Of a stretch of DNA of 39,022 nt, positions 5,377 to 38,254 are shown piece after piece. Where the stretch lies: IMG/VR virus record IMGVR_UViG_3300033156_000602, positions 1 through 39,022 of that record; one strand, given 5' to 3'. The DNA comes from a virus. The translations under genes and the position numbers were made by a program. Under the pieces are notes generated by a model. The model was not told the DNA's origin, did not search any database, and worked only from the letters and a program-made list of their open reading frames with translations. Numbering within the stretch: the first letter of the stretch is position 1; each line of letters opens with the position of its first letter.

Positions 5377-6369
5377 ATGGTTAACATAAACAAAATGAAA
5401 CCAAATGAAAAATTTGTTCCTGGCGTAATAGCTCCTGACCCCAGAGATTATAGAGATATTTTGCTTAGTTCAGTAGTTCCTTTGCGAGCTGATTATCCCG
5501 AAGTAATAGATTGCAGCAAATACACGATTATAAGCCATCAGTATTATGGCACTTGCACTTCGCACGGAAGTTCTGGGGTTGCTGAAAGTCAGGAGTCATA
5601 TACCGATTATCAAAAACAAGTTGACCTTGCTTCTAAATTTGTATATATTAAAACTAAAGAAATAAGCGGATTATGGAATACGCAAGGCGATTATTTGAGA
5701 AATGCCTTAAAAGCTCTTGAAAAGTTTGGAGCTCCCTTTGAAAGCGATTTTCCAGACAAGCCAATGGGCAACTGGGCGGAATATGTCAAAACTCCTATTC
5801 CTGAAAGCGTAGAAGAAAAAGCCAGAACTCATAAAATTAAGGGGTATGCCAGAGTGGGCAAAACCTTAGACGATTTTATGTCGGGAATGTGGACTACTAA
5901 AAGCCCCGTGGCAACGGGTATGATGTGGTATGAAAGCTATCGCAACATCAAAGTAGACGGAAAACTGCCATTGCCCGACGGAAAAGAAATAGGGGGGCAC
6001 GCAGTTAGAGCTGACAAAATAGATTTCAAAGAAGAAAAAGTTTGGTTTCCTAATAGCTGGGGAACAAGCTGGGGAAACAAAGGATACTTTTATATTCCTT
6101 TTAAAGAGTTTAATCAACATAATATATGGGATTGTTGGGTGGTCTACCCGCTTGATAATTCCATAGCAAAAAGTATGAAAAAAATAATCGGAGACAAGCG
6201 AGACAAGAAGCAATACCTTGTAGGCGATGATAAAAAACTCCGCTGGATTTTTAATGAGACAATTCTTGATGAATTGCACAACGCTGGGATAATAAATAAA
6301 TCAGAGGTCGAATGGGTTGACAATCTCGATGGATACGAGATTGGTCGTCCTTGGGCTTCAATAGCATAA
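5377..6369 (+). CDS. Papain-like (C1 family) cysteine peptidase
   Basis: About 330 residues from the ATG at 5377. The papain triad and oxyanion glutamine are visible: Q55 and C60 in HQYYGTCTSHGSS, H208 in GGHAVRA, and N226 in PNSWGTSWGNKGYFYI, the typical Asn-Ser-Trp-Gly block. The last ~60 residues (from about KQYLVGDDKKLRW) form a separate C-terminal domain, perhaps a binding domain. No signal peptide is seen. The next gene is holin-like and overlaps the stop (TAATG), so the enzyme may help lysis or cleave host surface protein; virion maturation is an alternative. Other possible starts are TTG 5359 and ATG 5395. Confidence 0.85.
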   Translation: MVNINKMKPNEKFVPGVIAPDPRDYRDILLSSVVPLRADYPEVIDCSKYTIISHQYYGTCTSHGSSGVAESQESYTDYQKQVDLASKFVYIKTKEISGLWNTQGDYLRNALKALEKFGAPFESDFPDKPMGNWAEYVKTPIPESVEEKARTHKIKGYARVGKTLDDFMSGMWTTKSPVATGMMWYESYRNIKVDGKLPLPDGKEIGGHAVRADKIDFKEEKVWFPNSWGTSWGNKGYFYIPFKEFNQHNIWDCWVVYPLDNSIAKSMKKIIGDKRDKKQYLVGDDKKLRWIFNETILDELHNAGIINKSEVEWVDNLDGYEIGRPWASIA

Positions 6370-6943: not shown

Positions 6944-6952
6944 TGTGGATAA
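6944..6952 (-). promoter_or_regulatory. DnaA box
   Basis: The minus strand reads TTATCCACA, the consensus DnaA box, within the 13-mer GTTATCCACAGGT (6954-6942). The same 13-mer occurs at 12894-12906 and 18168-18180. It lies about 55 bp upstream of the early promoter at 7007, so DnaA could act on early transcription or replication. Confidence 0.6.
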
Positions 6953-7006: not shown

Positions 7007-7034
7007 TTGACAAGATTTTTTTAACGCTTATACT
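7007..7034 (+). promoter_or_regulatory. Early rightward promoter, leaderless configuration
   Basis: TTGACA (7007-7012), 16-bp spacer, TATACT (7029-7034), then nine bases to the ATG at 7044. With transcription starting about seven bases after the -10 box, the mRNA would have at most two or three bases before the start codon. It would drive the gene series from 7044. Confidence 0.8.
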
Positions 7035-8600: not shown

Positions 8601-9371
8601 ATGGCACAAGGTAGATTTCTATTTAAAAGAATATCAATGAGCAAAAAAATGGCAAAATTGTCTAATGATACTGCCAGACTATTTTACACTTGGTTATTGG
8701 CTCATTTAGACAAAAATGGTTGCTTTTATGCCGACCCCAGAATACTAAGAAATATAGTGTTTCCTCGCTTAGATATATCAATCAAAGAAATAGAAAATTA
8801 TTTAGATGAATTAGAAGAAATCGGTTCTATTATTAGGTGGAAAAATGATGATGAAGAGTATCTTTGGTATCCTGATTTTAGAGAAAAACAGCCATATTTA
8901 CGACCAGAAAGAGAGGAAAGGGTGTCTGTTATTCCTGCTCCGCCAAGGGAATTACAGAAGAGTGTTGGAGTAGTGTTGGAGGAGTGTTGGAGTAGTGTTG
9001 GAGTAACTCCTGACCAACTCCCAAAGAAAAGGAAAAGGAAAAAGAAAAAGAATAATAAAAAGAAAAGGAAAAAGAAAAGCTTAAAACAACTTCAATCTCT
9101 TAGAGGAACTTTATTTGACGACGAGGACTTGCTTATACTAAAAACATTTTACAAATTGGGATATACTTGTCTTAATGGAGATGAAAAAGAATTGTCCGCT
9201 TGGTTAGAAGAAATTTCCAAAGAATTCCCCGACATCAATTTCTCGCAGGAAATTAAAAAGTTTGAAGAGTATTGGGAAGTTCAACCTCGCAAGCTAAAAA
9301 CTCATAAATTAGCTTGGCGTAATTGGTTAAATAACTGTAGAAAATATGCCAAAGATTCTCTTAACAGGTGA
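8601..9371 (+). CDS. Replisome organiser / replication initiation protein
   Basis: Encodes 256 residues. The N-terminal ~100 residues (MAQGRFLFKRISMSKKMAKL and the following helices) resemble the winged-helix DNA-binding domain of phage replisome organisers. The C-terminal part, ending with KTHKLAWRNWLNNCRKYAK, matches the layout of DnaD-like or helicase-loader-contacting domains. Between them is an extremely basic linker (about residues 140-160), encoded by a purine-rich tract directly after four 11-bp iterons. Gene order and the internal iterons suggest a lambda O-like initiator that recruits the host helicase and loader. No phage helicase was recognised. Confidence 0.72.
   Translation: MAQGRFLFKRISMSKKMAKLSNDTARLFYTWLLAHLDKNGCFYADPRILRNIVFPRLDISIKEIENYLDELEEIGSIIRWKNDDEEYLWYPDFREKQPYLRPEREERVSVIPAPPRELQKSVGVVLEECWSSVGVTPDQLPKKRKRKKKKNNKKKRKKKSLKQLQSLRGTLFDDEDLLILKTFYKLGYTCLNGDEKELSAWLEEISKEFPDINFSQEIKKFEEYWEVQPRKLKTHKLAWRNWLNNCRKYAKDSLNR
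8961..9079. other. Putative replication origin: four 11-bp iterons plus A-rich tract
   Basis: Four head-to-tail iterons AGTGTTGGAGT (the second ends GG) occupy 8961-9004, followed by the palindrome GGAGTAACTCC (9000-9010) and by a 57-base purine tract (9023-9079) with only two T. All lie inside the replisome organiser gene. Phage lambda has this arrangement: four iterons and an A+T-rich asymmetric tract inside gene O. The repeat unit is not a multiple of three, so protein repetition does not explain it. Confidence 0.65.
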
Positions 9372-13845: not shown

Positions 13846-14019
13846 TATCTTGTTTTACAAATCTCAAATTCTCATAAAAGAGAGTATACAATCAAAGAAG
13901 AGACAGACAACTTCATTAAAGCTCTCTTTGTCTATGGCAAGAACCCATCAGGAAGGTTGCTGGTAAAAAACATTGACCCAATGGAATTAAAAATCTATGA
14001 GCATATTCCAAGAAAGTAA
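13837..14019 (+). CDS. Hypothetical protein
   Basis: Encodes 60 residues (MKKYLVLQISNSHKREYTI at the start), a small predicted alpha/beta protein. It overlaps the RlpA-like gene by 23 bases, which suggests coupled translation. No family recognised. Confidence 0.5.
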   Translation: MKKYLVLQISNSHKREYTIKEETDNFIKALFVYGKNPSGRLLVKNIDPMELKIYEHIPRK

Positions 14020-14572
14020 AATAGTTGGCAAACTATCAACAACAAACGGACTCTTAAAAGATATAAGAGATAATTTAAAGAATAATACTTCTTGGACTAT
14101 TATTGGCGGTATTTGCGGGATTGTGGCGATAATTATAGCCATTTTCTCATTATTAGTCGCTACGAAGATAATTCACATTGGAGCGGGGACAGCCCCCGAG
14201 CAGGAGGTTGCCCTTCTTAAAATTTTGCCTGTAGTCTCGACCCCCCAAGGTTCAGACAGGGATACAACAAATTTATATCGGGCTAACCCGCTCTTTCGAT
14301 TAGCGTCGTGGTATGACGAAGAACACTGCCTTGGTTGCCGTGAAGATTTACTAATGGCGAATGGGGAAACGCTCGACTCTCAAAAGCCAATTTGTGCGTT
14401 CAACGATTTGCCCTTAGGAACTTGGCTTAAGATTACTTATAAAAATAAAACCGCCTATTGCGAAATTACGGACAGGGTCGGTTTGGACAGAATAGATTTG
14501 TCCAAGTCCGTGTTTCAACAGCTGGCGGATTTAAAGGTCGGTATAATAAGAGTTAAAATAGAAAAAATATGA
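13997..14572 (+). CDS. Membrane-anchored RlpA-like double-psi beta-barrel protein
   Basis: Encodes 191 residues. Membrane segment at about 33-55, a linker, then an RlpA-type domain from about residue 100: ASWYDEEHCLGCREDLLMANGETL, DLPLGTWLKITYKNKTAYCEITDR (D159) and RIDLSKSVFQQLA (D167). Bacterial RlpA cleaves peptidoglycan glycan strands lacking stem peptides, so this could be a lytic transglycosylase-type lysin exported by its anchor. It is encoded with early genes, not the lysis block, which may point to local wall remodelling. Activity is not certain, since phage versions diverge. Confidence 0.75.
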   Translation: MSIFQESKIVGKLSTTNGLLKDIRDNLKNNTSWTIIGGICGIVAIIIAIFSLLVATKIIHIGAGTAPEQEVALLKILPVVSTPQGSDRDTTNLYRANPLFRLASWYDEEHCLGCREDLLMANGETLDSQKPICAFNDLPLGTWLKITYKNKTAYCEITDRVGLDRIDLSKSVFQQLADLKVGIIRVKIEKI

Positions 14573-16332: not shown

Positions 16333-16644
16333 ATGAAAAGAGAAGAAGCTATTATTCGTTATAGAAAATGTTATCAATGCGGAAAATTCTTTACTCCCAG
16401 CAAATACAATAAAAATACCCAGATATTTTGCTCAAAAGAATGTCAAAGAAAAAAAGAAACAGCGTGGGGAGATTTCAAGCCAACTTTTTGGAGATGCCAA
16501 TGGTGCGGACACTTAAACCGCTTAGACTACAACCCAAGATGTAATATTGAAAGATACAAAGAGCGTAAATGCTCCAACCCTGAATGCCGCAGAAAGCAAA
16601 AAAGCCCAAAAATTGGCTTAACAGAGCCAGTTTTATCAGTATAG
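16333..16644 (+). CDS. Multi-cysteine zinc-finger protein
   Basis: Encodes 103 residues with two cysteine-rich units: CYQCGKFF ... FCSKECQRK and CQWCGHLNR ... CSNPECRRK, each able to bind a zinc ion, and many Arg/Lys residues. Probably a nucleic-acid or protein-binding regulator. It is the last gene of the early rightward series; a promoter follows three bases after its stop. Confidence 0.65.
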   Translation: MKREEAIIRYRKCYQCGKFFTPSKYNKNTQIFCSKECQRKKETAWGDFKPTFWRCQWCGHLNRLDYNPRCNIERYKERKCSNPECRRKQKSPKIGLTEPVLSV

Positions 16645-16647
16645 CCC

Positions 16648-16676
16648 TTGACTTATTATAAGATTGGGTGTAGTAT
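16648..16676 (+). promoter_or_regulatory. Sigma70-like promoter with no gene downstream
   Basis: TTGACT (16648-16653), 17-bp spacer, TAGTAT (16671-16676). Predicted start near 16683. No ORF longer than about seven codons follows before the terminator at 16891-16911, so it would make a noncoding RNA. Confidence 0.5.
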
Positions 16677-16868
16677 TAAATTGAAACTGCAGTCATTCTG
16701 TCCAATGCCCTATTTTTTTGTTTGACAGCTACCGCGGTAGGTTCGGGGCAAGGTTTGTTCTCTCAACTTTGAATAGTTTTCTGTTTTTTCGGATGCCTTG
16801 AATAGTTTTCTGTCCGTGAACTATTCAAGGTTGAGAGAATAATGGAGTCAAACCACATCCCATAAAAA

Positions 16869-16890
16869 AACCGCCCTTGATAGAGCGGTT
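16869..16890 (-). terminator. Intrinsic terminator of the leftward block
   Basis: Stem AACCGC (16869-16874) with GCGGTT (16885-16890), followed on the minus strand by seven or more T. It lies about 20 bases past the stop of the last leftward gene. Confidence 0.75.
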
Positions 16891-16911
16891 AAAAAGCTAA
16901 AACGCTTTTTT
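16891..16911 (+). terminator. Intrinsic terminator for rightward transcription
   Basis: AAAAAGC (16891-16897), six-base loop, GCTTTTT (16904-16910) and a further T. Adjacent to the leftward terminator, it gives a convergent termination zone between early and leftward transcripts. Confidence 0.6.
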
Positions 16912-17062
16912 ACTTAATCCCCAGCACTTTGACATCAACATTCCCAGCGATGCCAAGCACTACAAGAAACGCAACCAACAAAATAGCTTTGAGGACTTGT
17001 ATAGCTTTCTCTCTTTTTTCTTCGTGCTTTTTATTTAGATTGTATAGGTTTTGATAACGCAT
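16910..17062 (-). CDS. Small leftward membrane protein
   Basis: Encodes 50 residues: a charged N-terminus (MRYQNLYNLNKKHEEKREKA) and one membrane segment (about 21-40, IQVLKAILLVAFLVVLGIAG) ending GNVDVKVLGIK. Last gene of the leftward block, its stop next to the terminator pair. No family recognised; an exclusion or lysis-timing role would be speculative. Confidence 0.5.
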   Translation of the reverse strand: MRYQNLYNLNKKHEEKREKAIQVLKAILLVAFLVVLGIAGNVDVKVLGIK

Positions 17063-17180
17063 AGATTTTAAACCCTCAATTCCAGCCCGCCCTAAAATCT
17101 CAACTTACGCTGTCCTTTATTAAAAAGTTAGAGCTTATATTTAGGAACGAGCCAGAGTTCAAGGTTTAATTCCCTCTATC

Positions 17181-17221
17181 ATCTCCACCAGCCAAGCCGT
17201 TGAAAATTGACTGATGGAGAT
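17181..17221 (-). repeat. Intergenic hairpin element, copy C
   Basis: Stem TGGAGAT (17215-17221) with ATCTCCA (17181-17187), loop 27 bases. It follows the stop of the gene at 17232 (minus-strand context CAAAATTAG before it) and is followed by AGAGGGAATTAA. Copies A and B share this layout with different stem sequences. Confidence 0.55.
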
Positions 17222-17231
17222 TAAGAGAAAA

Positions 17232-17471
17232 CTAATTTTGTTTTTCAATGTGTAGTTGTTCCGCTTGAGATAGTAAATCAGTCAAATTTATAATTTTTCC
17301 CTTTTTTACTGCTTTTTCTGCTTTTTTCCAGTTTTTATTATAGTTTTTTATCTTTTTTTCCAGCGTTTTACCTTTTGGATATAAGCCAAAATTAATAACT
17401 TTTTTATCGTTTGTCATTTTCACTTTTAAAGGTTCAACGGCAAACCTTAGATTAGTTCTTAATTTCCTCAT
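17232..17471 (-). CDS. Small basic leftward protein
   Basis: Encodes 79 very basic residues (MRKLRTNLRFAVEPLKVKMT at the start, many Lys after). The ATG follows GGAGGAGTAGG, one of the few good Shine-Dalgarno sites here, and that site lies in the 3' arm of a hairpin (17473-17512), so translation may be controlled by folding. No family recognised. Confidence 0.5.
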   Translation of the reverse strand: MRKLRTNLRFAVEPLKVKMTNDKKVINFGLYPKGKTLEKKIKNYNKNWKKAEKAVKKGKIINLTDLLSQAEQLHIEKQN

Positions 17472-17472
17472 C

Positions 17473-17512
17473 CTACTCCTCCAACTTGCTACTGGTAAAG
17501 CTGAAGGAGTAG
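17473..17512 (-). repeat. Intergenic hairpin element, copy B, covering a ribosome site
   Basis: Stem of eight pairs (17473-17480 with 17505-17512; core CTACTCC/GGAGTAG), loop 24 bases. On the minus strand the 3' arm carries the GGAG of the Shine-Dalgarno site for the gene starting at 17471, then AGGAAATTAA. The fold would hide the ribosome site. Confidence 0.55.
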
Positions 17513-17520
17513 AGGAAGAA

Positions 17521-17679
17521 TTAAGAAAATTTTACTCCATAAACATTTCTAAGTTCTTCGGGTTCAATAAAAAGTTTTAAAATTTCTCTAACTGGTTTAT
17601 TATAAGGATTATAAACTATTCTAATTAATCTTTTTGTCTTTTTGTCCTTAATTTTAATCCACCTTTTTTCTTTTTTCAT
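17521..17679 (-). CDS. Small leftward protein with MKKEK start
   Basis: Encodes 52 residues (MKKEKRWIKIKDKKTKRLIR at the start, ending YGVKFS), basic with a beta-like middle. The MKKEK start is shared with several genes of the rightward early block. No Shine-Dalgarno site; the leader is A-rich. No family recognised. Confidence 0.5.
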   Translation of the reverse strand: MKKEKRWIKIKDKKTKRLIRIVYNPYNKPVREILKLFIEPEELRNVYGVKFS

Positions 17680-17734
17680 TTTTCAATGAGCCAGCCAGTA
17701 GCTCTGGCAAGATTAATTTTTAATTCCTTTTATT

Positions 17735-17766
17735 CTACCTCCTATAGTTGCGGCTGTAAGAGGTAG
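17735..17766 (-). repeat. Intergenic hairpin element, copy A
   Basis: Stem CTACCTC (17735-17741) with GAGGTAG (17760-17766), loop 18 bases. On the minus strand it follows CAAAATTAG, the end of the gene at 17777, and is followed by AAAAGGAATTAA. Its stem differs from copies B and C but is perfectly paired. Confidence 0.55.
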
Positions 17767-17776
17767 AGAAAAGAAA

Positions 17777-17965
17777 CTAATTTTGTTCTAAATACTCTCC
17801 CACTACTTCTGTTATTCTTTCGAGCAATTCAACATTTTTGCTTAGCTTGTCTTTTGGCTGTCCCCATTGCTGCCAACCATTGCTCCCAATCCTGCCTTCA
17901 ATTAAGGTATCATCCTCTTCTTTATCAGTATAATAGAATTTTAACTCTACATCTGTTAGTTTCAT
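17777..17965 (-). CDS. Small leftward hypothetical protein
   Basis: Encodes 62 residues from the ATG at 17965 (MKLTDVELKFYYTDKEEDDT at the start; a TTG 15 bases upstream is also open). Mixed alpha/beta with an acidic start and a helical end (NVELLERITEVVGEYLEQN). First gene after the two leftward promoters, preceded by a strong leader hairpin (18020-18068). No family recognised. Confidence 0.55.
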   Translation of the reverse strand: MKLTDVELKFYYTDKEEDDTLIEGRIGSNGWQQWGQPKDKLSKNVELLERITEVVGEYLEQN

Positions 17966-18019
17966 GTTTTTAATGAGCAATCCGCAACTTGCCCTGATTA
18001 TAAAGAGACGACCCTTAAC

Positions 18020-18068
18020 CGTCAGGTATTAAGAGCCGCCTCAAAAATCTTAATAAAAAACCCTGACG
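18020..18068 (-). promoter_or_regulatory. Leader hairpin of the leftward transcript
   Basis: Outer stem CGTCAGG (18020-18026) with CCTGACG (18062-18068), inner stem TATTAAGA (18027-18034) with TCTTAATA (18048-18055), and a six-base bulge between them: 15 pairs in total. It lies about 35 bases downstream of the predicted start of the nearer leftward promoter, in the untranslated leader, so it could protect or attenuate the mRNA. Confidence 0.6.
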
Positions 18069-18079
18069 ATTAAAATAGT

Positions 18080-18088
18080 TTATCCACA
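18080..18088 (+). promoter_or_regulatory. DnaA box
   Basis: TTATCCACA, just downstream of the predicted start of the nearer leftward promoter. Flanks differ from the other three copies (followed by AC instead of GGT). Confidence 0.55.
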
Positions 18089-18108
18089 ACTTCAAATGTT
18101 CTACTTTT

Positions 18109-18136
18109 ATTATACTCTTCTTAAAAAACTTGTCAA
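18109..18136 (-). promoter_or_regulatory. Consensus sigma70 promoter, leftward (proximal)
   Basis: Minus strand TTGACA (18136-18131), 16-bp spacer, TATAAT (18114-18109): a perfect match in both boxes, followed by AAAAGT. It drives the leftward block. Confidence 0.85.
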
Positions 18137-18168
18137 GTCCCTGTCAATTTAGCTTCAAAATCAGTAAG

Positions 18169-18177
18169 TTATCCACA
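18169..18177 (+). promoter_or_regulatory. DnaA box
   Basis: TTATCCACA within the 13-mer GTTATCCACAGGT (18168-18180). It lies between the two leftward promoters, downstream of the distal start and upstream of the proximal -35 box. Confidence 0.6.
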
Positions 18178-18197
18178 GGTCAACCTTTTCACTTTTA

Positions 18198-18225
18198 ATT
18201 ATACTCTTTTAAAAAAACTTGTCAA
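18198..18225 (-). promoter_or_regulatory. Consensus sigma70 promoter, leftward (distal)
   Basis: Minus strand TTGACA (18225-18220), 16-bp spacer, TATAAT (18203-18198), followed by TAAAAGTG as at 7035. Nearly a duplicate of the proximal promoter about 89 bp away, including the TTGACAAGTTTTTT start. Confidence 0.85.
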
Positions 18226-18261
18226 GAGTTAATAACTTATTTGGTAGATTTTAGTAGATAT

Positions 18262-18612
18262 ATGGCAACGACAAAACAACAAAACGCATTAAAAATAAAA
18301 CTCAAAAATCCCAAATTAAATATGGGTAAAGTTATGATAGAGGCAGGCTATTCTGAAAAGACTGCCAAAGCCCCAACAAAATTAACCAAGAGCAAAGGTT
18401 GGCAAGAATTGCTTGCCCAAATAGATGATGAGCAGCTATTAAAAAAACTCAGAAAAATCGCATTAGATGATAAAGATAAAAGAGCTTGCCTTTCAGCAAT
18501 AGATACTTTACTAAAACTCAAAGATAGATACCCAGCAGGAAAACTAAACCTTAAACACCAAGACTCCGATTATAAAGAATTCCTCAAACAAATAAAAGCA
18601 ATAACAAGATAA
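18262..18612 (+). CDS. terS: Terminase small subunit, putative
   Basis: Encodes 116 residues from the ATG at 18262 (a TTG at 18241 adds seven). The N-terminal part NMGKVMIEAGYSEKTAKAPTKLTKSKGW fits the helix-turn-helix DNA-binding region of small terminases, followed by a helical oligomerisation-like part (DEQLLKKLRKIALDDKDKRA). It lies just upstream of the large terminase, separated by a repeat-rich gap and one small gene. The small subunit recognises the packaging site and feeds DNA to the motor. Moderately sure. Confidence 0.7.
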   Translation: MATTKQQNALKIKLKNPKLNMGKVMIEAGYSEKTAKAPTKLTKSKGWQELLAQIDDEQLLKKLRKIALDDKDKRACLSAIDTLLKLKDRYPAGKLNLKHQDSDYKEFLKQIKAITR

Positions 18613-19236: not shown

Positions 19237-20589
19237 ATGACCAAGAAAAATACGAAAAGAATTGGGAACGAATTTTCAAAAATAGACAAGGTTCTTCAAA
19301 AAAGAATAGGTTGGACTCCTCACGAAGCCCAACAAGAAATTCTTAATGGATTAGCCCAATTTACAGCTATATGTGCTGGAACTCGGTTTGGAAAGAGTAT
19401 GCTAGCCGCTTATATCGCTCTTAGGCAGCTTTTATTGGCAGAACAGCATATTTGGGTCGTAGCTCCCACTTATGGGCTGTCAGAGAAGATTTACGCTTAT
19501 ATTGTCAAATGGTTGGGTAGAGGATTTGGCAACGATTTAAAAAAGGGCTTAATTCGCGTTTCTGACAGAAAGGGGGAAGCAAAAATAGAATACAAATTAA
19601 CAGGAAGCTGGATTGAGTTTAAATCTGCTGAAAACCCAACATCTTTATTGGGTGAAGAGCTGGATTTAGCAATACTTGATGAAAGTCCAAGAATTAAAGC
19701 AAATGTCTGGGAAAGCTATATTTATCAGAGATTAACTTCCCGCAAAGGAAAAGCTGTTTTCATTGGAACTCCAAGGGGAAAAGGTTGGTTTTATAGAGAG
19801 TTCGTAAAGGGTGAAGACCCAGAAAACAAAGAAAACGCTTCATTCACTTTTACTTCCAAAGACAATCCTTATTGGGGAAGACCCAAGAGTTCACCAGAGG
19901 AAGAGTGGCGAAAAGCCAAAGAACGATTACCAGAAAGAGTTTTCAAACAAGAGCACGTTGCCAAGTTTATTGAAGGAGCTTCGCAAGTTTTTAGAGGAAT
20001 AGATAAAATAACAGGAAATACCTTAAAAGATGTTCAATTTGGTCATTACTACACAATGGGCGTAGATATAGGAAAATATGAGGATTTCACAGTATTAACG
20101 GTCATAGATAGGAATACTCACGAAGTAGTAGCTTGGGAACGCTTTAATAAAATAGATTATCCTTTACAAAGAAAACGAATAAAAGCACTTGCCGACAGAT
20201 ATAATAGGGCAAGGATAGTAATTGATTCTACTGGAACTGGAGACCCAATTACTACCGATTTACAAAGAATGGGATTGATATTAGATGATTTCAAATTTAC
20301 CAACACTTCCAAAGAACAGTTAATAGAAAAATTAGCAGTTTATATTGAAAGGAAACTAATAACTATTCCCGAAATTCAGGTTTTAATAAATGAGCTTGAA
20401 ACATTTGGATACGAATATACTCCTTCTAAAAAAATAAAATATTCAGCTCCGCAAGGTATGCACGATGATTGCGTGATTTCACTTGCCTTAGCTGTTTGGG
20501 GACTATTTAAAGACAAACCGCCCCAAAAAGACCCAGTTCAACAAGAACTGGAAAGAAGAGATAGACCCAAGATAAGTTCAGATATATAA
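19237..20589 (+). CDS. terL: Terminase large subunit
   Basis: Encodes 450 residues. ATPase domain: Walker A GTRFGKS (48-54), Walker B LDLAILDE (142-149), and a coupling-type FIGTPRGKGWFY (about 175-186). Nuclease domain: D277 in VDIGK, D330 in RIVIDSTGTGD and D410/D411 in GMHDDCVISLALA, the acidic residues of the RNase H-like fold. It pumps DNA into the prohead and cuts it. The length is normal for the family. A 15-base motif shared with 33914-33928 covers its stop. Confidence 0.95.
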   Translation: MTKKNTKRIGNEFSKIDKVLQKRIGWTPHEAQQEILNGLAQFTAICAGTRFGKSMLAAYIALRQLLLAEQHIWVVAPTYGLSEKIYAYIVKWLGRGFGNDLKKGLIRVSDRKGEAKIEYKLTGSWIEFKSAENPTSLLGEELDLAILDESPRIKANVWESYIYQRLTSRKGKAVFIGTPRGKGWFYREFVKGEDPENKENASFTFTSKDNPYWGRPKSSPEEEWRKAKERLPERVFKQEHVAKFIEGASQVFRGIDKITGNTLKDVQFGHYYTMGVDIGKYEDFTVLTVIDRNTHEVVAWERFNKIDYPLQRKRIKALADRYNRARIVIDSTGTGDPITTDLQRMGLILDDFKFTNTSKEQLIEKLAVYIERKLITIPEIQVLINELETFGYEYTPSKKIKYSAPQGMHDDCVISLALAVWGLFKDKPPQKDPVQQELERRDRPKISSDI

Positions 20590-24373: not shown

Positions 24374-24390
24374 TAAATCCTTGTAGTTAA

Positions 24391-24424
24391 TGTCGGGTTG
24401 GCGGGGAAACCCGCCTTCCCGATA
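24391..24424 (+). promoter_or_regulatory. Stable hairpin with GAAA tetraloop after the capsid gene
   Basis: Inner stem GGCGGG (24400-24405) with CCCGCC (24410-24415) around a GAAA loop; outer stem TCGGG (24393-24397) with CCCGA (24418-24422); a TT/TT internal loop between. No T-run follows, so it is not a standard terminator. It abuts the ATG at 24424 and could protect capsid mRNA ends and repress the next gene. Confidence 0.65.
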
Positions 24425-24861
24425 TGAAAATGAAAGTAGTATTTGTTGATAAAAATTTTAAATGGGGATGTGGTCTTTCGTTTTCCAATAAACAATTAAG
24501 GGAAATGATGGGTTTTAAGACGAATGAATTGAAAGATTATTGGGAGAGGTTGAAAAAATACTGCGTGAAAGCATTAAAGTTAAAGCTTCTTAAAAACTTT
24601 AAAAGCTACGAAGAATATGAAAAAGCTTTAAAAAAATTCTGGAAAAAAGATATTAAAAAGTATAAAAATCTTCCTTGGAAAGAAATTAGAAAGAAAATAC
24701 CAGAATTCAAATCATCATTAAAAGAAAAAGATATTAGAGTGGTATTTATTGGAAAGAAAGAATTTAGTAGATTTTTGTTATTTAAAGAATGTGATTATAA
24801 AGAGCTTAAAAAGACAATTAAATACTATTTAAAAGTAATATTAAAAGTTAAGAATATATGA
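24424..24861 (+). CDS. Hypothetical lysine-rich protein
   Basis: Encodes 145 very basic residues (MKMKVVFVDKNFKWGCGLSF at the start), mostly helical, more A-rich than the neighbouring capsid gene. Its start codon touches a stable hairpin. The bases GAAAGTAGTATTT near its start recur at the start of the HNH gene (36182). First gene of the insert between capsid and tail genes; no family recognised. Possibly acquired separately. Confidence 0.55.
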   Translation: MKMKVVFVDKNFKWGCGLSFSNKQLREMMGFKTNELKDYWERLKKYCVKALKLKLLKNFKSYEEYEKALKKFWKKDIKKYKNLPWKEIRKKIPEFKSSLKEKDIRVVFIGKKEFSRFLLFKECDYKELKKTIKYYLKVILKVKNI

Positions 24862-36749: not shown

Positions 36750-38254
36750 AAGTAGTTTTTTCTCAAGAACAATTTTTATACGGAATATCTAAAAGCCCTA
36801 CGGTTGGGCGGGGATTTCCCCGTTTAGATGGGGTAGATTTGATGAGGGATTTGGGTTATATGTCGGCAGGATATGGATTAGAACGAGTTCTTGCTTCTTC
36901 TATTACAAAAGCCCCCTATCATTTACTTTTAGACAATTCAAATGCTGATGGTTTGGGAAAATCTTATCTCTGGGGAGTAGCAGACGATGTTATTTATAAA
37001 GTTGATATAGAAACAAGCCCAGAAACTCTAACTATGAGTGCCTCAACAGCATCGGGATTTAACAGGGGGGCTTTATCTTATAAGGGTTATCTTTATGTTG
37101 CGAGTGGTGATGATATAGGAAGAGGATTAATATCCGCTACTAACTCTGATGCCTTTGCTTGGACAAGTTCTTGGCTAACAAATACCATAGGAGAAACTAC
37201 CAGCGATAGTTCTGCCCCTCATCCAATGATACAAATGAAAGATAATATGTATCGTTTGGACGGTAGGTGGATAGATAAATATGATGGAACTACTTATACT
37301 AAACACGCCTTAGATTTAGAAACTGGCTGGGTAGGAATTTCTCCAGAAAAATGGGGTGAGTTTATGGTAATAGGGGCAGTTAAAGAACCTGATTCTTATT
37401 CTCGTTATGGCACATTACCTTTACTTGGAAGAAAAAAATCCAGACTATTTTTTTGGGACACTTATTCGGAAAGCTGGGACAAAGACCGTTCTACTGAAAT
37501 TGATGGTCGCCTTGTCTGGGTAAAAAATAAAAAGGGAGTTATTTATACATTAGTTCAACACAAATCAGGAGTATTCGAATTGGGATATTTTGATGGAAAT
37601 ACTATTCAATCTTTAAAGAAATTCAATTTTCGGACCTGGGATGATTGTAGTGCCATCTATGAACCAGCAAAAGATATAATGAGTAATTTTATTTATTTTG
37701 CGATAAATAGTGCGACAACAGGATTTGCGAGAATAATGGCTTATGGGCAATACGATGGCGAAATGCCAAATACTCTATTTAATCCTTACTACATTAGTCC
37801 TGCCATTGCTAAGCCATCATCAATTTTTTCTTTGAAATGGGCAGAGGGAATTAATGATGCAATGTATATGGGACTCTATAATGAAACAGCTGGAAAAACT
37901 GGACTTTATAGGGTTCAAGCTCCCTGGTCTTCTACTGGAACTCCTGGGACTTATAATATTGAAACGCCAAATATATCGGGCGAGGGAAAGCAGATGATGA
38001 AATCTATAAGGATAAATCACAAACCATTGGCTTCGGGAGATGTTTTGTATCTTTATAGAAAAATAGATAACGCTAATTGGGAAGGTGCAATTTGGGCTAC
38101 TACTTCTTATGCCCGTCATCCAGACAGTGTTTCTTTTTCAATAGATGAAGAATTTGAATTTAGAGATTTCCAATTAAAACTTGTCCAACCAAATGGAGCC
38201 AATATAAGAATTAAGGATATAGTTATAGAAAGTGAAGATATAGATGAATTATGA
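36746..38254 (+). CDS. Beta-rich tail protein, possible tail hub or nozzle
   Basis: Encodes 502 residues, rich in beta strands with repeated aromatic, Gly/Asp-rich loops (YLWGVADDVIYKVD, GYLYVASGDDIGRG, NMYRLDGRWIDKYDGTTYTK, GVFELGYFDGNTIQ), the pattern of a beta-propeller. Podovirus tail nozzle proteins have comparable size and fold. It overlaps the HNH gene and the next gene by four bases each. Confidence 0.6.
   Translation: MKVVFSQEQFLYGISKSPTVGRGFPRLDGVDLMRDLGYMSAGYGLERVLASSITKAPYHLLLDNSNADGLGKSYLWGVADDVIYKVDIETSPETLTMSASTASGFNRGALSYKGYLYVASGDDIGRGLISATNSDAFAWTSSWLTNTIGETTSDSSAPHPMIQMKDNMYRLDGRWIDKYDGTTYTKHALDLETGWVGISPEKWGEFMVIGAVKEPDSYSRYGTLPLLGRKKSRLFFWDTYSESWDKDRSTEIDGRLVWVKNKKGVIYTLVQHKSGVFELGYFDGNTIQSLKKFNFRTWDDCSAIYEPAKDIMSNFIYFAINSATTGFARIMAYGQYDGEMPNTLFNPYYISPAIAKPSSIFSLKWAEGINDAMYMGLYNETAGKTGLYRVQAPWSSTGTPGTYNIETPNISGEGKQMMKSIRINHKPLASGDVLYLYRKIDNANWEGAIWATTSYARHPDSVSFSIDEEFEFRDFQLKLVQPNGANIRIKDIVIESEDIDEL

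Follow-up and report, generated by a model that had tools for sequence, protein, structure and literature searches.

The early mRNA of phage T7 carries RNase III sites as punctuating hairpins, and lambda sib is a case of retroregulation by an RNase III hairpin. In the pR'-tR' layout of lambda a leader follows the last early gene, with the late genes downstream. Metastable folding is exemplified by hok, in which a local hairpin is later displaced by a longer pairing; in the mRNAs of type I toxins such metastable folds hide the start site of the toxin gene. With regard to sizes and architectures, PMC5371410 names T7 and lambda as RNase III targets and gives 22 nt as the minimum target, a value that may not be that of the present host; other papers cover lambda Q antitermination (PMC7171158), putRNAs of ~70 nt with two stem-loops located downstream of early promoters (PMC9378689), and metastable hairpins in type I toxin mRNAs (PMC6733600).

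The locus described here belongs to the viral record IMGVR_UViG_3300033156_000602, whose entire 39,022 bases constitute the window of this study; since its ends share 87 identical bases, the record probably represents an entire phage genome of ~38.9 kb, circular or permuted. Early genes run rightward, downstream of the best rightward promoter candidate at 7007, and besides a match to a replication initiator they encode a DNA methyltransferase and a RusA-like Holliday junction resolvase. Four small ORFs form a leftward operon that reads from 18.1 to 16.9 kb behind two promoters matching the consensus at 12/12 positions, while the large terminase subunit (TerL, 19237-20589) and the head genes that come after it are all rightward, as is an ORF at 18241-18612 that is terS-like by place only, without a family match. 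From this gene layout the region of interest is the gap in which the early and leftward units converge. It contains a long hairpin, formed by arms A and C, which is preceded by the stop codon of the last early gene and followed by a converging pair of terminator-like hairpins; a further segment, arm B, offers arm C an alternative partner (Table 1). The G+C skew dips at 16.5-19.5 kb, roughly where genes run leftward; a replication strand switch at this dip was rejected, as the direction of transcription accounts for the skew.

Like the RNase III hairpins of T7 early mRNA and lambda sib, this is a long intergenic hairpin of the transcribed strand at a gene boundary, and the A-C duplex, with 25 pairs, exceeds the 22-nt minimum given in PMC5371410, which B-C alone, with 12 pairs, does not; unlike them, its loop holds a spare copy of one arm, and cleavage here is only putative. 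With the 6S leader of lambda pR'-tR' the locus shares a place after the last early gene, a candidate promoter, a predicted RNA of ~230 nt and late genes downstream, but neither a PF03589 nor a PF06530 protein was found, its terminator is weak, and an opposed operon intervenes. The putRNA of HK022 is likewise a structured phage RNA that could act on polymerase, whereas here a single long hairpin stands where the early genes finish, with >9 kb separating it from the candidate early promoter at 7007. Finally, as in hok and aapA, a local hairpin would form first and a longer pairing displace it as transcription proceeds, although here no gene is seen under the control of the A-C and B-C folds.

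A sequence-only reading of this DNA had proposed an orphan RNA gene with two mutually exclusive hairpins, in one of which 21 bases of arm A paired with arm C through one G-U. The pairing of arm A with arm C is confirmed, but its extent was understated: the arm sequences give, on the + RNA, a helix of 25 unbroken pairs with 3 G-U. Among helices with G-U allowed and a loop of up to 100 bases, it is the longest on either strand of the whole 39-kb genome, and after dinucleotide shuffling none of 300 genomes reaches 25 pairs (their longest helices average 15.6 pairs, with 22 as the extreme); it is beyond chance. For the 88-nt hairpin the folding energy is -35.9 kcal/mol (z -7.2), the whole 264 nt (16648-16911) have z values of -5.9 on the + strand and -4.0 on the - strand, and, when the 3,892 windows of 120 nt on both strands are ordered by G+C-corrected folding energy, the + windows 16721-16840 and 16741-16860 come 5th and 6th. 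There are two differences between arms A and C, at 16757 and 16768, which are both G-U in the + RNA and mismatches of A with C in the - RNA, and the helix is unbroken on the + strand only. This preference for the + strand is a hint only, as there are just two changes; it agrees with the better + fold, which makes a rightward RNA plausible, and with the placement of the leftward terminator before the hairpin, such that a leftward RNA should not contain it.

Table 1. Coordinates of the features discussed in the text; positions refer to the window except where L023, the relative contig IMGVR_UViG_3300033141_002059, is named.
Feature	Position	Strand	Remarks
Replication initiator match	8601-9371		rightward early gene
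Tandem 11-bp repeats, then A-rich stretch	8957-9075		GAGTAGTGTTG type; inside initiator ORF
Last rightward early gene	16333-16644	+	103 aa, Cys-rich, zinc-finger-like by eye
Candidate sigma-70 promoter	16648-16676	+	TTGACT-17-TAGTAT, 9/12 consensus matches
12-bp palindrome CTACCGCGGTAG	16729-16740	not applicable	
Arm A of the long hairpin	16755-16779	+	25 unbroken pairs with 16818-16842
Direct repeat TTGAATAGTTTTCTGT, first copy	16769-16784	+	16 bases
Arm B, alternative partner of arm C	16796-16807	+	12 perfect pairs with 16819-16830
Direct repeat, second copy	16798-16813	+	16 bases
Arm C	16818-16842	+	pairs with arm A; inner part also with arm B
Strong intrinsic terminator of the convergent leftward operon	16869-16890	-	9 pairs, then T-run; -12.3 kcal/mol
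Weak A/U terminator-like hairpin of the rightward RNA	16892-16912	+	-3.8 kcal/mol, two G-C pairs, T6
Last leftward gene	16910-17062	-	50 aa, hydrophobic stretch, possible membrane segment by eye
Gap hairpin E4	17160-17238 (hairpin near 17160-17228)	-	between small leftward ORFs
Gap hairpin E3	17450-17530 (hairpin near 17460-17540)	-	between small leftward ORFs
Gap hairpin E2	17707-17785 (hairpin near 17710-17772)	-	between small leftward ORFs
Leader of the leftward operon	17954-18077	-	
Gap hairpins of L023	16005-16085, 16297-16375, 16629-16704	-	
Leader in L023	16852-16973	-	

We read the region, with a probability of roughly 0.4, as an untranslated segment that closes the rightward early transcription unit, in which the hairpin works as a transcript-end or processing structure. 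The rightward early transcript would end in an untranslated region, with or without a top-up promoter at 16648, and its + RNA would fold, as computed, into the 25-bp hairpin, with the last early gene on one side and the convergent terminators on the other. This double-stranded block would be long enough for RNase III cutting, or might be a stabiliser stopping 3' decay, and the hairpin would separate the early mRNA from the leftward operon opposite. Arm B duplicates the inner part of arm A exactly; while the RNA is being made, it would form a transient hairpin with arm C, until displaced by arm A. By analogy, our best guess for the A-C hairpin is a putative RNase III-sized processing or 3'-end hairpin of the early transcript; the analogy is supported by the long hairpins that the gaps of the leftward operon hold in the same genome, and counted against it are the lack of the hairpin in the relative L023 and of a RGRGGRAATTAA flank. 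In this capacity it would be a routine but clean example from an uncultivated lineage with almost no annotated relatives. Overall, the hairpin is real and non-random, an RNA gene is unproven, and a switch is unsupported.

The elements needed for an RNA gene are of uneven quality. The promoter said to follow the last early gene ranks 23rd among 77,984 positions with a weight matrix built on approximate sigma-70 weights, and 2.3% of 389 windows of 100 bases on the + strand score as well with the same matrix; it is nevertheless moderate, and unremarkable by hexamer count (promoter-like sites at 9/12 or better number 17 in 3 kb, as compared to 9.8, sd 3.4, in shuffles), so that from its sequence we consider it a plausible candidate. 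A terminator had been placed about 230 bases further on: an A/U hairpin with its T-run may qualify, but it is weak and absent from the list of the terminator scan, and the strong terminator nearby points leftward. That the interval is free of ORFs and followed by no gene is borne out, as there is no ORF of at least 60 aa in 16645-16909 and the next rightward one starts at 18241, 1.3 kb away. Readthrough from the early operon would yield the same RNA as a promoter of its own. Thus, while a rightward RNA is plausible, an independent orphan RNA gene, with a moderate promoter and a weak terminator, is predicted, only partly supported and unproven. For an effect in trans on the leftward transcript the sequence offers no support: apart from the cis overlap, the longest perfect complement has 9 nt, a length that 141 of 200 shuffles match, and a trans target in that transcript was rejected with complementarity no better than in shuffles. 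The covariance models of Rfam 15 gave no match above the gathering score in the whole window; MIR815, MicX and other weak matches in 16600-18300, far below gathering scores, were discarded.

A search with TerL recovered 19 loci, the best of which, L002 (74% identity), is closest in the head genes but starts only at the terminase genes, short of the hairpin region; in genome_contigs the only TerL match, a distant one (36%), was in a MAG of the FCB group, too far to name a host. Searches with the 103-aa last early protein found no relatives and those with a 930-aa protein found 2, while the ORF at 13997-14572 led to the sole relative found that both shares the leftward operon and covers the region. 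This contig, L023 (record G022; 43,666 bases with 114-base identical ends), is a mosaic cousin in which two stretches of the leftward operon, of 124 and 117 bases, are 94% and 93% identical to those of the window, and which has its own leftward terminator-like hairpin; its rightward genes end in a different gene. No comparable hairpin is present at the matching place (149 bases folded), where the best + fold, at -23.8 kcal/mol, is partly the terminator stem; the leftward operon, at least, does not need the hairpin. The DNA pattern of the hairpin had 0 matches in viral_contigs and 0 in genome_contigs. A looser pattern matched once in viral_contigs, by chance, inside a 1906-aa ORF of an unrelated contig, and homologues sought in phages, plasmids and 22 related records amounted to scraps of 11-30 nt.

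The failure of the feature to appear in every relative covering the place (n = 1 phage) and in the pattern scans speaks for a neutral relic, in which the inner arm of the hairpin was copied by template slippage (quasi-palindrome repair) and kept for want of selection in the gap. The second copy is an exact 16-mer with sharp boundaries that lies in the first hairpin's loop, which is in keeping with such an origin, but a helix of 25 pairs with only G-U exceptions would hardly last unselected in a compact genome unless it were very recent, and we consider a relic rather unlikely.

The promoter bears on a late leader like that between pR' and tR' of lambda: a constitutive short RNA would start at 16648 and normally stop near 16912, and an antitermination signal, of which the hairpin would be a part, would let it extend across the leftward operon to the terminase and late genes. 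Site 16648, which follows the last early gene, encoding a small Cys-rich protein, scores best among the rightward promoter candidates in 16600-18300; the only other nearby candidate is at 17265, and the terS-like gene is not immediately preceded by any of the eight top-scoring sites. However, the lambda Q family PF03589 and the Q21 family PF06530 were each matched in 0/3 records (for the Q82 family PF06323 the 0/3 carries no weight, the control genomes being silent as well), the rightward terminator is weak, and the late RNA would have to cross the leftward operon with its two 12/12 promoters. If true, such a leader, which we regard as unlikely, would be a point of control between early and late genes that lacks a recognised Q protein.

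At the DNA level, the exact 16-base direct repeat reported earlier is indeed present, and its location is one of three places in the genome where a 16-mer is repeated within 100 bases; the palindrome is present as well, but it is one of four in the genome, a count not beyond chance. Two direct copies and one inverted copy of TTGAATAGTT, plus the GC-rich palindrome, occur within ~115 bp, upstream of the terminase genes of a phage that encodes a RusA-like Holliday junction resolvase, and could make up a site that binds a phage protein or extrudes as a cruciform in replication, packaging or recombination. Such a function is quite unlikely in our estimate: the imperfections favour the + RNA over DNA, since both differences between arms A and C are G-U (a weak argument, with two changes only), no integrase-type match was found among the 62 distinct ORFs scanned against PHROGs, and the 11-bp repeat array and A-rich stretch inside the initiator gene are more origin-like. 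As 11 is not a multiple of 3, that repeat is a DNA-level feature; judged from its sequence it is a likely replication origin, in an arrangement that we take to be lambda-O-like. An origin at the hairpin was put lower in view of this better candidate.

With respect to the suspected switch, arm B does pair with arm C through 12 perfect pairs as claimed. A perfect 12-bp helix somewhere in the genome occurs in 151 of 300 shuffles and alone is not unusual; when the region is shuffled, 22 of 1000 sequences have an arm with two strong competing partners, which is uncommon but not extreme. The best fold of 16740-16860 (-42.3 kcal/mol) contains A-C, and forcing B-C gives -39.0, i.e. 3.3 kcal/mol worse, such that in this energy model A-C should dominate at rest. 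The outer part of the A-C stem remains paired under forced B-C, which limits the choice to the inner 12 bases of arm C: the mutual exclusion of the hairpins holds for these bases, for which arm B competes, but not for the outer stem. In folds of the growing transcript (minimum-energy folds in 4-base steps, not a kinetic simulation) B-C is found at 3' ends 16830-16834 and A-C from 16838 onward, A-C displacing B-C within ~8 further transcribed bases. Given the energy advantage of A-C and the persistence of its outer stem, B-C would be an early folding intermediate and not an equal partner. There is no U-run after arm C, and the terminator-like hairpins at 16867-16912 fold independently and share no bases with the arms; the alternative fold, unlike that of a riboswitch or attenuator, controls neither a downstream terminator nor a start site. 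With A-C quickly taking over, homologues not found and a regulatory output missing, switching is not supported. A timed folding device at the early/late boundary, in which B-C forms first, A-C displaces it via a toehold, and the brief state (or a phage protein trapping it) decides whether polymerase from 16648 halts where the two units converge or reads on into the late genes, crossing the leftward operon in antisense and silencing the leftward genes simultaneously, is very improbable.

The hairpins of the leftward operon may be the more interesting find. All three gaps among its four genes hold a long hairpin of the transcribed strand (z -3.6 to -4.8), and the three gap elements of L023 fold likewise (z -4.7 to -7.0); each has 11 to 16 unbroken pairs, in most cases enclosed by an outer stem. 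Inner stems mostly differ in sequence with pairing kept, which is not formal covariation, the multiple alignment being out of register at these stems; between E2 and its L023 counterpart, 93% alike, one difference mends a mismatch (by eye). These hairpins, for which Rfam gave no match at gathering score, are a candidate repeated processing or leader element, and an operon with a different long hairpin in each gap would make hairpin-punctuated phage operons testable outside T7-like phages. A 3' flank motif, RGRGGRAATTAA, carried by two of the leftward hairpins, occurs at 17166 (-), at 17218 (-) in the coordinates of record G022, and once in coding sequence at 37843 (+); the flank of the A-C hairpin has no match to it, and for this reason we do not place that hairpin in the family of the leftward gap hairpins.

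The leader of the leftward operon is 94% identical to that of L023, while the ORFs that follow differ. Its terminator-like hairpin, of 15 pairs, faces competition from an upstream CGTCAGG/CCTGACG pairing (by eye), and at two of the positions where the phages differ the hairpin stays paired (G-U to A-U); it is a more classical attenuator candidate than the A-C hairpin.

Other structured or repeated elements were observed elsewhere. The most structured 120-nt window of the genome is 24381-24500 (+), just 3' of the major head protein gene, with a 14-pair hairpin of -28.7 kcal/mol at 24390-24425 (+). Four exact DnaA-box sequences, TTATCCACA, are located at 6944 (-), 12895, 18080 and 18169 (+), a number reached in 0 of 100 shuffles; most are near promoter candidates, three extend to AGTTATCCACAGGT, and one is found also in L023, near a TTGACA. 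At 5596-5664 (+) of the latter, in the coordinates of record G022, the loop CGGCGGATG of a strong 14-pair hairpin is complementary to CATCCGCCG just upstream, a possible pseudoknot with the second pairing assigned by eye. In a further record, L012, several inverted copies of TCGGACAAAATGTCCGATGAGT, with arms of 20-25 pairs, at 558-716 form a possible operator cluster.
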